In this document: in pieces, positions 5,913 through 61,460 of the stretch
Numbering within the stretch: position 1 is the first letter of the stretch
Layout of the letters: each line of letters begins with the position of its first letter
DNA from: Prevotella sp.
GTDB lineage: Bacteria; Bacteroidota; Bacteroidia; Bacteroidales; Bacteroidaceae
Reading direction: 5' to 3'
NCBI GenBank assembly: GCA_017428925.1
Contig: JAFRPY010000113.1
Span: forward strand, 1 to 64,000
Length of the DNA: 64,000 bases
Program-made: the position numbers and the translations under genes
Notes under the pieces: model-generated
What the model was told of the DNA's origin: nothing
Database searches by the model: none
The model's input: the letters and a program-made list of their open reading frames with translations, nothing else

Positions 5913-7000
5913 ATATACTCTTCGCCGAAACGGATGTGCACCTCGTTGATGTATTTCCTGACGAGGGCACTCGAATCTTCTTTGTGGCAGATAAGGAGCA
6001 CGTTATCCTTTTCTGCCACAATGTAGTTTTCAAGGCCGTTGATGATGCCGACATGGTCGGAAGGCAGCTTGATGATGTTGCCGTGGCTGTCGTCGAGAAG
6101 TACCTTTGAATCGATGACCACATTATCGCCCGGGCCCTTGGCCTGACTCTCATAGATGGAGTGCCACATGCCGAGGTCGGCCCATCCGAAGTCGCATTTC
6201 ATCACATAGACGTTTTCGTTTTTTTCCAGGATACCGTAGTCGATGGAGAGATGCGGGTATGCGGGGAAGTTTTCTTGAATGAACTTTTGTTCAAGCTCCA
6301 GACTGTAGGGCGTGTCGTCGTTGTCTATTTTGCGCAGCACAAAGGGCAGCACAGCCTGCATGCAGTGAATCAGATGCTTCACGTTTGAGAGAAAGATACC
6401 CGTGTTCCAGAGAAATTCGCCGCTCTCCATGAACATCTTGGCAAAGTCGCGGTCGGGTTTCTCGGTAAACGATTTCACTTTCCATACATCGGGAGCGTCT
6501 TTCTCGTCGCCTATCTGTACATATCCGTAGCCGGGTTCGGGACGAGTCGGCTTTACGCCCATGGTGAGCAGGTAGTCGTTGTGCTCAACCAGTTCGAGTC
6601 CGGCCAGCATATTTTTCTGGAACACGTCTTCCTTGAACACGGCCTGGTCGCTGGGTACCACAATCACGTTGGCATCTTTGTTGGTATGATAGATGCGGAA
6701 ACTGGCCCATGCCACACTGGGGGCAGTATTTCTGAAAATAGGTTCTGCAAGGATGTTCTGGCGGGGAAGTTCGGGAAGTTGTTCGGCTACCAGGCTCTCG
6801 TAGTCCTGATTGGTGCTCACCAGTATTCTTTCCGCTGGAATTATTTTCGTCAAACGGTCGAAGGTGGACTGCAGCAGTGTGCGTCCTGTAGAAAAGAAAT
6901 CAAGAAACTGTTTGGGCTTTTTCTCTCGGCTGCATGGCCAAAGTCTACGGCCTTTGCCGCCAGCCAGTATTAAGCAGAAGTCGTTATGTCTGTTTACCAT
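5909..7000 (-). CDS. manC: Mannose-1-phosphate guanylyltransferase
   Basis: Makes GDP-mannose from mannose-1-phosphate and GTP for glycan, O-antigen or capsule synthesis. The nucleotidyltransferase motif LILAGGKGRRLWPCSREKKPKQF is at the N-terminus, followed by NILAEPIFRNTAP, VPSDQAV and FTEKPD. The 363-aa protein is the single-domain type and lacks the phosphomannose isomerase domain of bifunctional enzymes. The start at 7000 (MVNRHNDF) is preferred over an upstream ATG at 7051, which adds 17 residues with no family match. There are no glycan genes next to it, so it appears to act as a housekeeping GDP-sugar enzyme. Confidence 0.92.
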   Translation of the reverse strand: MVNRHNDFCLILAGGKGRRLWPCSREKKPKQFLDFFSTGRTLLQSTFDRLTKIIPAERILVSTNQDYESLVAEQLPELPRQNILAEPIFRNTAPSVAWASFRIYHTNKDANVIVVPSDQAVFKEDVFQKNMLAGLELVEHNDYLLTMGVKPTRPEPGYGYVQIGDEKDAPDVWKVKSFTEKPDRDFAKMFMESGEFLWNTGIFLSNVKHLIHCMQAVLPFVLRKIDNDDTPYSLELEQKFIQENFPAYPHLSIDYGILEKNENVYVMKCDFGWADLGMWHSIYESQAKGPGDNVVIDSKVLLDDSHGNIIKLPSDHVGIINGLENYIVAEKDNVLLICHKEDSSALVRKYINEVHIRFGEEYI

Positions 7001-56246: not shown

Positions 56247-57878
56247 CTAAAAATCGGGAGCTTTCTCGAATTCCATGATTTCACCTGTCAACGGATGGGT
56301 GAAAGAAAGGTATTCGGCATGGAGATATAGGCGGTCGGAATGGAAACCGTAGAGGTCATCGCCCACGATGGGCATTCCCAGACCGTCTTGGTGGGCACAA
56401 TGCACGCGCAGCTGGTGGGTGCGGCCGGTATGGGGCGTGAGCACAACGCGATAATACGGTCCTTCCTGACCAATGATTTCATAATCGGTCACCGCAGGTT
56501 TTCCCTCTTCGTAATCCACCACTTGTCGCGGACGGTCGAGGTAGTCGGGGGAGAGAGGGAGGGAGACCCTCCCCCGTCCCCTCCCTATAGGGTGGGGAGT
56601 AATATCCTTTTCCGCTTCAGAGGTAATTGCTCCCTCCCTATAGGGAGGGCGGGGGGAGGGTCTGGTGGGTTTTGCGGCCTGTACCATCGCCACATACCGT
56701 TTCTTCACTTCGTGGTTCTCGAACTGCCGCTGCAACTGTTTATAGGCGAACTCGGTCTTGGCCACCACCATAATGCCGCTGGTGGCTTGATCAAGCCGGT
56801 GCACCATCATGGGGCCTGTGGCATTGGGGAAACGCTGGCGCATGATGTCGTAGAGTGAAATTTCCCCTGTCTTTCCTGGTACGGAGAGCAGTCCTTCGGG
56901 TTTTACCACTACGGCTATCTGGTCGTCGACAAAGAGGGTGGGGATAAAAAGACCCTCCCCCTTACCCCGCCCTATAGGGCGGGGAGTAATATCTTTATCC
57001 ACTTCAGAGGTAATTGCTCCCTCCCTATAGGGAGGGCAGGGGGTGGGTCTGGATGGATTGAGGTTGGGTGTTAACATCCATGTTAGTATCGGTTTGCATT
57101 TGCCGTTGCAGGCGGGATAGAACTGGAAATGGTGTCGGATTTCACGCTTCGGACTTTCGCCCCACCAGAATTCGGCAACGGCCAGCGGCTCGAGTCCATG
57201 CTGAAAAGCATACTGGAACAGTTTGGGTGCGCAGCATTCGCCTGTACCGCCAGGGGGCAGCGGGAATTTGCGCAACAGTTTCGGCGAGTTGTGATAGTCG
57301 CGCCAGATATCCACCACATTGCGCACCTCTCCCTTATAATTCATAAGGTTGTATTGCTCGAAAAGCCATAGTAGCAGGTTGTTCGACATTTGCTTGCGCT
57401 GGTGTTTTAAGTCCAAAAGCCCACCCCTGCCCTCCCGAAGGGGAACCCACCCCTGACCCTCCCGAAGGGAGGGAGTTTCTAGTGTGGAATCGGAAGATTG
57501 AAGCTGTGCTTGTAGGGCTTCAATTTCCTTGTTTAGAGCGGAGATTTTTGCTTCGGTCTGTTTGAAATGGCCGTCGGGCTGTTGTGCATCAAAAATAGGT
57601 GGCACGAACCAGTCCCAGTCGTTTCGCCCTGCGAGCAGTCCGGCGTAGGCGGCGAGGAAACCAAGGCTCACACTCAATCCAGAACCCACCTTTACTATCA
57701 ATACTCCGAACATTTCTCCTTTCTCGGCATCCTCCAGCAAATCCTTGTGTGCGCGTACATATTTCTTTACCTCTTCTGCAGCCAACAGGCACAGCGGATG
57801 AGGCTCATAGTTGAAAGGGTTGTTCAACTGTGAGGGCGGTTTGATGTCGGTATGTAGCGGATGAATTGCCGGCTCCAT
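56247..57878 (-). CDS. RluA-family pseudouridine synthase with in-frame palindromic insertions
   Basis: A 543-aa protein of the Bacteroidetes RluA type with a long N-terminal region (residues 1-310: NPFNYEPHPLCLLAAEEVK, GECCAPKLFQYAFQHGLEPLAVAEFWWGESPK, YPACNGKCKPIL) and a catalytic domain from about 315: VVKPEGLLSVPGKTG, MMVHRLDQATSGIMVVAK (catalytic Asp near residue 361), KKRYVAMV, GKPAVTDYEI and HTGRTHQLRVHCAH. RluA enzymes isomerise uridines in rRNA or tRNA. Three in-frame insertions are visible: about residues 136-153 (SLREGQGWVPLREGRGG), about 276-309 (RPTPCPPYREGAITSE ...) and about 405-438 (RPSPRPPYREGAITSE ...); the DNA of the last two is a palindromic element. Probably still active since motifs are intact. 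Confidence 0.85.
   Translation of the reverse strand: MEPAIHPLHTDIKPPSQLNNPFNYEPHPLCLLAAEEVKKYVRAHKDLLEDAEKGEMFGVLIVKVGSGLSVSLGFLAAYAGLLAGRNDWDWFVPPIFDAQQPDGHFKQTEAKISALNKEIEALQAQLQSSDSTLETPSLREGQGWVPLREGRGGLLDLKHQRKQMSNNLLLWLFEQYNLMNYKGEVRNVVDIWRDYHNSPKLLRKFPLPPGGTGECCAPKLFQYAFQHGLEPLAVAEFWWGESPKREIRHHFQFYPACNGKCKPILTWMLTPNLNPSRPTPCPPYREGAITSEVDKDITPRPIGRGKGEGLFIPTLFVDDQIAVVVKPEGLLSVPGKTGEISLYDIMRQRFPNATGPMMVHRLDQATSGIMVVAKTEFAYKQLQRQFENHEVKKRYVAMVQAAKPTRPSPRPPYREGAITSEAEKDITPHPIGRGRGRVSLPLSPDYLDRPRQVVDYEEGKPAVTDYEIIGQEGPYYRVVLTPHTGRTHQLRVHCAHQDGLGMPIVGDDLYGFHSDRLYLHAEYLSFTHPLTGEIMEFEKAPDF
56564..56663. repeat. Palindromic element A within the RluA-type gene
   Basis: 100 bp bounded by AGACCCTCCCCC and GGGGGAGGGTCT (perfect 12-bp terminal inverted repeats), with inner palindromes CCCCTCCCTATAGGGTGGGG and CCCTCCCTATAGGGAGGG around a conserved spacer (AGTAATATC ... 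CAGAGGTAATTGCT). Open in the gene's frame. Confidence 0.85.
56950..57050. repeat. Palindromic element B within the RluA-type gene
   Basis: 101 bp, about 85-90 percent like element A by eye. Ends AGACCCTCCCCC and GGGGGTGGGTCT; inner palindromes CCCCGCCCTATAGGGCGGGG (perfect) and CCCTCCCTATAGGGAGGG (perfect). Same orientation and same reading frame as element A. Confidence 0.85.
57420..57475. repeat. Shorter GC-rich element C in the N-terminal part of the RluA-type gene
   Basis: Two tandem units of CCCACCCCTG plus CCCTCCCGAAGGG, each with a CCCT/AGGG hairpin. Encodes TPSLREGQGWVPLREGRGGL in frame. Related in style to elements A and B but without the TATAGGG core. Confidence 0.65.
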
Positions 57879-60458: not shown

Positions 60459-61460
60459 TTATTGTGAGATTTTTGAAGATTTTTGTCCAAAGCCTTTTAG
60501 GTATGTGCGGATGATGTTGCCGTCGACGAACTGCTCCTGCTGAAGCACGGCGTCGGCTGGCAGTTGGGGAGCAGGGGTGCCATTGGTAACGGTAATCGGT
60601 GACGTCTCGATGCGGATTTCGTCCCACATACCAGAATCGATAAATGATTGCAGGGTGCATCGTCCGCCTTCGACTATAAGACTTTGAAGCCCCTCTCGTT
60701 CCCCCCAAAGGGGGGATGATAGGACAGATAATGAATCAATTTGGGCATTCTTTCCCAAGACGAGTCGTACAGGGTCTTTCCCGCTCCATTCGCGAACGTT
60801 CAGCTGGGGATGTTCGCGCTCGTCAGTAACACGCCCCACGAGGATGGCATCATATTCGCTGCGTAGCTTGTGGACCAGCATTTTGGTGTAGGGCGTGGAG
60901 AGGGCTATGGCCTTTCCGTGGTCGTCGATGATGGAATTTGAGGTTTGTGCCCATTTCAGCAGGATATAGGGACGGTGAAACTGGTGGAAGGTGAAGAAAT
61001 GCCTGTTGAGTGACTGGCATTCTTTTTCCAGGACGCCGACGGTTACTTCGATGCCTGCCTCACGAATCTTCTGGATGCCACGGCCCTGAACTTCGGCAAA
61101 AGGGTCAACGCAACCCACTACGCATCGTTTCACCCCCTTACGGATAATCAAATCGCAACAGGGCGGAGTCTTGCCATAGTGGGCACAGGGTTCGAGCGAG
61201 ACATAGATGGTGGCGTTTTTCAGCAGGTGTTCGTTTTCGGGAAGCACCGAGGCGAAGGCATTCACTTCGGCGTGTCCTTCACCGCAGCGCACATGATAAC
61301 CCTCGCCAATGATGAGGCCTCCCTCCGTCTTCCCTCTATAGGGGGAGGGCACAACGATTACTGCCCCAACCATCGGGTTGGGCTTGGCATTCTGCATACC
61401 GTTACGTGCCAGTTGCAGGCAACGCCTCATGTACATTTCATCTATCTGCTGCTGATTCAT
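60459..61460 (-). CDS. ribD: Riboflavin biosynthesis protein RibD with in-frame insertions
   Basis: Bifunctional diaminohydroxyphosphoribosylaminopyrimidine deaminase and 5-amino-6-(5-phosphoribosylamino)uracil reductase. The deaminase half has GEGHAEVNAF (H63, E65) and the zinc cysteines in EPCAHYGKTPPCC (C92, C101). The reductase half has YILLKWAQTSNSIID, STPYTKMLVHKLRSEYDAILVGR and LIVEGG. Two GC-rich hairpin insertions are encoded: PSPYRGKTEGG at about residues 38-48 and SSPLWGEREGL at about 248-258. The second sits where relatives have about 35-50 more residues, so the reductase domain looks shortened (333 aa in all). The last codons (QKSSKISQ) belong to a motif also found at 56.2 kb. 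Confidence 0.9.
   Translation of the reverse strand: MNQQQIDEMYMRRCLQLARNGMQNAKPNPMVGAVIVVPSPYRGKTEGGLIIGEGYHVRCGEGHAEVNAFASVLPENEHLLKNATIYVSLEPCAHYGKTPPCCDLIIRKGVKRCVVGCVDPFAEVQGRGIQKIREAGIEVTVGVLEKECQSLNRHFFTFHQFHRPYILLKWAQTSNSIIDDHGKAIALSTPYTKMLVHKLRSEYDAILVGRVTDEREHPQLNVREWSGKDPVRLVLGKNAQIDSLSVLSSPLWGEREGLQSLIVEGGRCTLQSFIDSGMWDEIRIETSPITVTNGTPAPQLPADAVLQQEQFVDGNIIRTYLKGFGQKSSKISQ
60689..60716. repeat. GC-rich hairpin insertion D in ribD
   Basis: CCCCCC-AAA-GGGGGG hairpin (about 60701-60715) next to GCCCCTCTCGTT; encodes SSPLWGEREGL in frame in the reductase domain. Confidence 0.6.
61321..61349. repeat. GC-rich hairpin insertion E in ribD
   Basis: CCCTCCGTCTTCCCTCTATA then GGGGGAGGG. It shares the CCCT-CTATAGGG style of elements A and B and encodes PSPYRGKTEGG between VIVV and LIIGEG. 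Confidence 0.65.

Follow-up and report, generated by a model that had tools for sequence, protein, structure and literature searches.

A hairpin repeat lying in frame in a Prevotella pseudouridine synthase gene: a probable REP/BIME-like family whose arms differ around a kept spacer

Protein-coding palindromes are known from Wolbachia, and the described systems that come closest to the locus reported here are found in several further groups of bacteria. The RPE of Rickettsia are palindromes of 105-146 bp with 12-bp terminal inverted repeats, carried in frame by 19 protein genes and found between genes as well (PMC2229807). The intragenic REPs described by Di Nocera in 2013 are short hairpins that occur singly or as dimers, in frame, in genes of several phyla; their hosts include pseudouridine synthases, two inserts occur in one gene, and the recB genes of two Xanthomonas carry different REPs at about the same place; Bacteroidetes are named once, for CGTC repeats (PMC3733652). 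REPINs and BIMEs are inverted doublets of palindromic units with a spacer, are predicted to form a long hairpin and reach hundreds of copies; in P. fluorescens SBW25 the REPs are GTAG-tagged and only 14 of 1,067 repeat 16-mers overlap genes (PMC3116915, PMC8266576). A MITE of Porphyromonas gingivalis is the subject of PMC4596501, and passages of PMC3686654 hold no match for terms of replacement or conversion.

The DNA analysed here (the window, 64,000 nucleotides) is part of contig C93 of a 3.56-Mb Prevotella draft genome in 122 contigs (85% complete, 5.4% contamination; own genome in what follows). The nearest named relatives are the assemblies RUG030, RUG249 and RUG12994, each called ‘uncultured Prevotellaceae bacterium’, where we take RUG to stand for rumen. 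In our view two elements, A and B, in an RluA-type gene of the window are likely to be copies of a non-autonomous, REP/BIME-like hairpin repeat spread over the genomes of a Prevotellaceae group, tolerated as in-gene inserts whose spacer was kept and whose arms were exchanged. The features are as follows.

56247..57878, minus strand: RluA-family pseudouridine synthase gene, a 543-aa ORF that is open despite three inserts
56564..56663, unstranded: element A, an inverted doublet of two hairpin units, synthase residues 406-439, predicted inside the catalytic domain
56564..56598, plus strand: hairpin unit of A, head AGACCCTCCCC, loop TATA
56599..56631, unstranded: spacer of A, encoding AITSEAEKDI, which resembles the B spacer and the spacers of the orthologous inserts of L071 and L072
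56632..56663, minus strand: opposite hairpin unit of A, a perfect CCCTCCCTATAGGGAGGG hairpin
56950..57050, unstranded: element B, an inverted doublet of two hairpin units, synthase residues 277-310, predicted linker before the catalytic domain
56950..56985, plus strand: hairpin unit of B, head AGACCCTCCCC, hairpin CCCCGCCCTATAGGGCGGGG
56986..57018, unstranded: spacer sequence of B, encoding AITSEVDKDI
57019..57050, minus strand: opposite hairpin unit of B, a perfect CCCTCCCTATAGGGAGGG hairpin
about 57420..57474, plus strand: third in-frame insert, of a related family with a GAA loop, with head CCCACCCC twice, hairpin CCCTCCCGAAGGGAGGG and peptide TPSLREGQGWVPLREGRGG

An earlier note had described A and B as palindromes of about 100 bp lying in frame in an RluA-type gene, each with 12-bp terminal inverted repeats, two inner palindromes and a spacer, and direct reading of the sequence together with the 543-aa ORF bears this out. 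Both elements begin with AGACCCTCCCCC (at 56564 and 56950), and they end with GGGGGAGGGTCT at 56663 and GGGGGTGGGTCT at 57050, the opposite ends having the form GGGGG(A/T)GGGTCT; the terminal 12-mer is exact at three of the four ends and has one mismatch at the fourth. Each element holds two TATA-loop hairpins in units of ~35-45 nt around its spacer, with 87% identity between the two elements over 102 nt (91% in the BLAST match). Folded as single strands, both form one long hairpin that none of 200 shuffles equals (z -7.7 for A, -4.65 for B). The ORF at 56247-57878 on the minus strand also confirms that A and B are read in one common frame as PPYREGAITSE-type peptides. Each element is open in two of the six frames, because one frame of the CCCTCCCTATAGGGAGGG hairpin meets TAG. 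The third insert, the doublet nature of the elements and the differences in arms between species go beyond what had been noted earlier. The fold of the third insert is not clearly better than those of its shuffles (z -1.23; 23/200 as good), and its identification therefore rests on a match to the unit profile at 57444-57486 (E 3.5e-6). In the whole 64-kb window, matches at E < 0.01 to this profile, itself built from the copies, are confined to the synthase. At 61320-61350 there is a weak core-like palindrome, TTCCCTCTATAGGGGGAGGG, under the profile threshold, and the Rfam models give no match at gathering score between 56000 and 58000.

Further copies, on which the idea of a repeat had been staked, are plentiful. 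Element B gives 60 BLAST matches in its own genome, or 49 distinct places when hits of the palindrome on the two strands are taken as one (40 of 63 candidates scored), and, with both strands counted, 54, 31, 22 and 11 matches in the three close relatives G100, G101 and G102 and in G034. The core hairpin, defined as CCCTCCC-N2..7-GGGAGGG, occurs 148 times in the own genome and 209, 114, 64 and 148 times in the same four genomes, against 0-1 per genome for a reversed-pattern control (1 in the own genome). It is present in 145 of 200 sampled genus genomes, the own included, at counts from 0 to 302, and its loop types vary between genus genomes among the matches listed. In one genus member a regular array of at least 8 core hairpins with loop TTGCA recurs every 57 bases (G188:C1:124239-124656).

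The unit of this family consists of a head, AGACCC[A/T]CCCC, a C-rich/G-rich stem with a loop of 3-7 nt, and an inner tail with little conservation (no position above 0.7 bits), which often reads GAGnnATTACTT; among 54 units the loop is TATA in 27, TATGA in 12, TATAT in 4 and another in 11. Over 31 stretches (30 fetched and the window) 32 of 64 units stand in doublets and the other 32 are without a close partner. Where units lie within 120 nt of each other, 16 of 18 adjacent pairs point heads-out, two run head-to-tail and none tails-out. What appears as an element with terminal inverted repeats is an inverted pair of units, which are also found alone. Among the 16 doublets seen, A and B alone have a spacer in common, and none of the other 14 has it. 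Heads are also stacked: in 7 of 49 units a further head stands at most 26 bases upstream, compared with 93 of 24,800 random positions. A strict pairing of A-type with T-type heads was considered and rejected, the 16 doublets being AT in 8 cases, AA in 4, TT in 2 and other in 2. One contig (L036) has two ORFs of ~535 aa, each with a unit in its 5' part (1997-2049 and 6067-6117). What follows the unit is alike in both, and the ORFs are perhaps duplicates that carried the repeat along.

How often the repeat lies within genes was assessed for 50 of the 148 core hairpins of the own genome, scored as intragenic where one open frame had coding hexamer composition over 180 bases on each side, with a cut-off of 0.15. 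Eleven hairpins are intragenic by this measure and 39 are not, with two of the sampled hairpins just under the cut-off (0.13 and 0.15 vs 0.15); since 376 of 670 random positions qualify, the repeat is depleted in genes, yet present there. A Pfam family was matched by 9 of 10 proteins searched. The unit falls inside the Pfam-matched stretch in an alpha-L-rhamnosidase (L015), a DUF218 protein (L023) and a GH2 beta-galactosidase (L027), directly after it in a radical-SAM protein that we take to resemble QueE (L029), and outside the matched stretches in an AAA helicase (L025). The GH2 beta-galactosidase gene (L027, 1163-4401) has several palindromic inserts and is open only when two different frames are combined; in this draft it is possibly broken.

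The signals of mobility bear on two further explanations. Were the elements MITEs, that is, deletion derivatives of an IS with terminal inverted repeats, moved by a target-duplicating DDE transposase, their AGACCC...GGGTCT ends, the 12-bp length of these and the size of ~100 bp would be accounted for. No target duplication was seen at the 16 doublets, where the summed flank match of 19 lies below the shuffled mean of 24.4 and is reached by 932 of 1,000 shuffles, and this flank comparison leads us to reject a MITE with target duplication; half of the units (32/64) are moreover without a close partner and spacers differ among copies, making an origin as MITEs improbable altogether. The second explanation is mobilisation in trans by a RAYT-type Y1/HUH transposase, in the manner of REPINs. 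Heads-out inverted doublets of hairpin units with a short spacer, the missing target duplication and the many single units all agree with it, as does the presence of two Y1_Tnp genes in the own genome. These two genes, however, sit beside other repeats, which leaves a RAYT link through them unsupported. Neither GTAG nor GTGG occurs 5' of the stem on either side in any of 54 units, and CGTC is at no stem end (0/54); GTAG is found 3' of the stem in 11/54. Y1_Tnp matches number 2 in the own genome, 3 in G100, 2 in G034 and 1 in G006, eight in total (6 above the cut-off of Pfam), and there is none in the drafts G101, G102 and G063, though the first two hold 114 and 64 hairpins. Within flanks of up to 1.5 kb, none of the 8 matches in the 7 draft genomes is a transposase flanked by the repeat; at L117 one hairpin lies about 460 bp upstream of Y1_Tnp, and at L121 an exact 9-base head without a hairpin follows the match by 13 bp. 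On balance we regard mobilisation by a RAYT as possible and rather doubtful. The repeats that adjoin the Y1_Tnp genes of the own genome (L039, 1965-2040; L040, 1027-1100) are a direct repeat around GAACCGTCCCCGTGATTTC and an inverted repeat around GGGTCATGGGGACAG.

Residues 321-496 of the synthase match PseudoU_synth_2 (PF00849, E 2.9e-31, Pfam), and TIGR00005 of NCBIfam matches the protein in two pieces, under its curated cut-off. Among solved structures the best sequence match is E. coli RluA (2i82, E 2.4e-39), also aligned in two pieces, with a break at query residues 400/433 that corresponds to RluA residues 99/104, where the E. coli enzyme has 4 residues. Judged from this sequence alignment, element A would sit in a short loop inside the catalytic domain and element B would form part of the linker ahead of it. 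The earlier note had placed both copies between domains, which is wrong for A. It had also held that the synthase motifs are intact, and HRLD, presumably the active-site motif, is indeed unbroken. The N-terminal ~310 residues (window 56947-57878) have no Pfam match, although parts of this stretch show good conservation across the genus.

At least one match to the synthase was found in each of the 100 genus genomes searched, a count that takes in other RluA-type genes. When the linkers of 32 homologue loci were examined, PPYREG-type peptides (PPYREG, PPFREG, PSRREG, PSQREG) occurred only in the three closest, L071-L073; absence from most homologues is what the view of the peptides as insertions had predicted, and no conserved domain carrying them emerged. 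A conserved-domain reading of the peptides is rejected with 3/32 homologues having them. Linker S1 is 6-8 residues long in 17/32 homologues, 3 in 2/32 and 13-30 in 13/32; S3 has 19-22 residues in 19/32, and S4 has 11-17 in 17/31. Between the window gene and its three relatives, the host segments show pN of 0.009-0.096 and dN/dS of 0.008-0.193, with dS saturated in three segments, and the S3 and S4 inserts show pN of 0.229-0.503 and dN/dS of 0.33-0.74, ratios that are only indicative because the insert arms need not be homologous. We take these values to mean that the enzyme is being maintained, with little constraint on the inserts at the protein level. Could the inserts nevertheless be a functional part of the enzyme under protein selection? 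The frame is kept, and at S3 or S4 the window and the three relatives retain the spacer peptide (TSEVDK, TSEADK or TSETDK). We think this very unlikely, however, as insert pN far exceeds that of the host parts, lengths and peptides are variable, and 29/32 homologues are without these peptides. Least probable of all is an artefact of assembly or binning: the genome is a draft of 122 contigs, but in the assemblies RUG030, RUG249 and RUG12994 the same linkers also carry inserts of this kind.

Perhaps the most revealing comparison is that between the orthologous inserts of the three relatives, in which spacer and arms part company. By DNA alignment, a spacer core starting TCTGAA is common to the window and L071 at both S3 and S4, to L072 at S4 and to L073 at S3 (the L073 contig ends before S4). 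The loop of the S4 downstream arm is TATA in the window and TAAACA in both L071 (from G100) and L072 (from G101), and the S4 upstream arm loops are TATA, TTTA and AAA; L071 has an additional hairpin within S3, L072 has an S3 without the spacer, and the linker that holds the third insert in the window differs in all three. Genome-wide, the TAAACA hairpin numbers 44 in G100, 15 in G101, 2 in G102, 2 in the own genome and 0 in G034, and the TATA hairpin 10, 1, 4, 20 and 2 in the same order (Fisher test of the own genome vs G100, 4e-9; vs G101, 1.3e-7). The loop of the S4 downstream arm thus agrees with its host genome, and beyond this single arm only site 2 of L071 backs the agreement. The genome-wide counts cover TATA and TAAACA; of the AAA, GAA and TTTA loops at other arms, AAA and GAA are present in the own genome too.

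Other genes and more distant homologues offer a different account, in which the same linkers are repeatedly hit by different repeats that come and go, with no exchange of arms in place. Palindromes of other sequence stand at S3 of L064 (stem 13, 0/200 shuffles), at S4 of L048 and L069 (stem 9, 0 and 1/200) and at S1 of L056 (stem 9, 0/200), and among the close relatives S1 is short in L071 (6 residues) and has 26 residues in L072 and 30 in L073, with palindromes of stem 17 and 19 (0/200 shuffles each), all at significance uncorrected for the number of tests. Long linkers with no palindrome or a weak one are found at S3 of L042 and L070, at S4 of L047 and L052 and at several S1 positions, and those without a clear palindrome count against a simple story. 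Relatives of three further genes carry a different repeat at the same site, namely the DUF218 gene of G100, the QueE-like gene of G100, G101 and G102, and the rhamnosidase gene of G100 and G101, where a TATA-type unit is common to G102 and the own genome; at these sites independent insertion could fit equally well. The more distant G006 is without the unit in two genes compared. The query ORFs ran from stop to stop, and stop codons occur in the ranges that matched in the rhamnosidase relatives and in the DUF218 relative from G100. Empty sites clean to the base were not obtained; in most cases seen, relatives at about 75-84% protein identity hold another repeat there. A spacer core that is common to species in the synthase while its arms differ is poorly explained by independent insertions, and we hold repeated hits to be a possible account, short of an even chance. 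At the site of the own rhamnosidase hairpin, the relatives L104 and L105 have a short ATCACCC-type repeat instead.

With about the same reserve we put forward a specific form of arm exchange, in which the inserts would be standing landing pads whose arms are rewritten in place to the types prevalent in the host, by conversion, template switching or nested insertion, while spacer and frame persist. If this is true, the loop peptide of an enzyme would be edited species by species by the repeat population of the whole genome. The inner tail GAGnnATTACTT, of which a similar form occurs in a GA-rich doublet of L064, may be a signal common to otherwise unrelated arms. That GA-rich element has unrelated arms, GGAAGGACGAAGGAGG, and occurs in three places, the first apparently only half, at ~1009-2480 of L064, which is the same synthase in genus member G094; its inner tail, GGAGATTACTTCTGA, is similar to the tail and the spacer found in the window elements.

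Returning to A and B as copies of a REP/BIME-like hairpin repeat, we propose the following course of events. Units stand singly or form heads-out inverted doublets able to fold into one long hairpin; most copies are not within genes, and about a fifth of the sample is, in frames left open and at spots likely to tolerate extra residues. Movement as a single-stranded hairpin through a putative enzyme seems most likely, with later conversion between copies. One doublet probably entered the synthase before the window organism separated from RUG030, RUG249 and RUG12994, in an ancestor of all four, and was then probably copied to a second loop, as A and B share spacer and frame. Its spacer core would have stayed, and its hairpin arms may have been swapped for other types of the family by conversion or by nested insertion between repeats.

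How does this family compare with the known systems? The Rickettsia precedent and that of Di Nocera mean that in-frame insertion and a same-site difference are not new in kind. Among the papers listed by our literature searches, a weak test, none deals with in-frame palindromic repeats in Bacteroidota, nor with this Bacteroidota family, its abundance or arms varying around a kept spacer. The earlier note had likened the elements to those of Rickettsia and called their sequence different. In kind the likeness holds, both being palindromes in frame in conserved genes and elsewhere; the sequence is different by inspection, and NCBIfam includes RPE models, of which none is among the hits for the synthase at E 1e-3, itself a weak test of sequence. 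The host group is also another one, and unlike the Rickettsia elements those described here are inverted doublets with arms that differ at the same site between species. With the GTAG and CGTC REPs the family shares short in-frame hairpins, single or in dimers, pseudouridine synthase hosts and same-site differences, whereas here neither GTAG nor CGTC stands 5' of the stem (54 units) and the spacer is kept with other arms. It is like REPINs and BIMEs in its inverted doublets, spacer and predicted long hairpin, and differs from them in that 11/50 hairpins lie in genes and no tag or RAYT link was found. In-frame palindromes are best known from Rickettsia, and here they are numerous in a group of Bacteroidota, as judged by hairpin totals and by an intragenic share taken from the own genome alone. 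Orthologous inserts of this sort provide a way to ask how new loops enter enzymes, and, set beside the known REP-like repeats, a kept spacer core with differing arms offers a direct way to study how such repeats are copied, replaced and homogenised.
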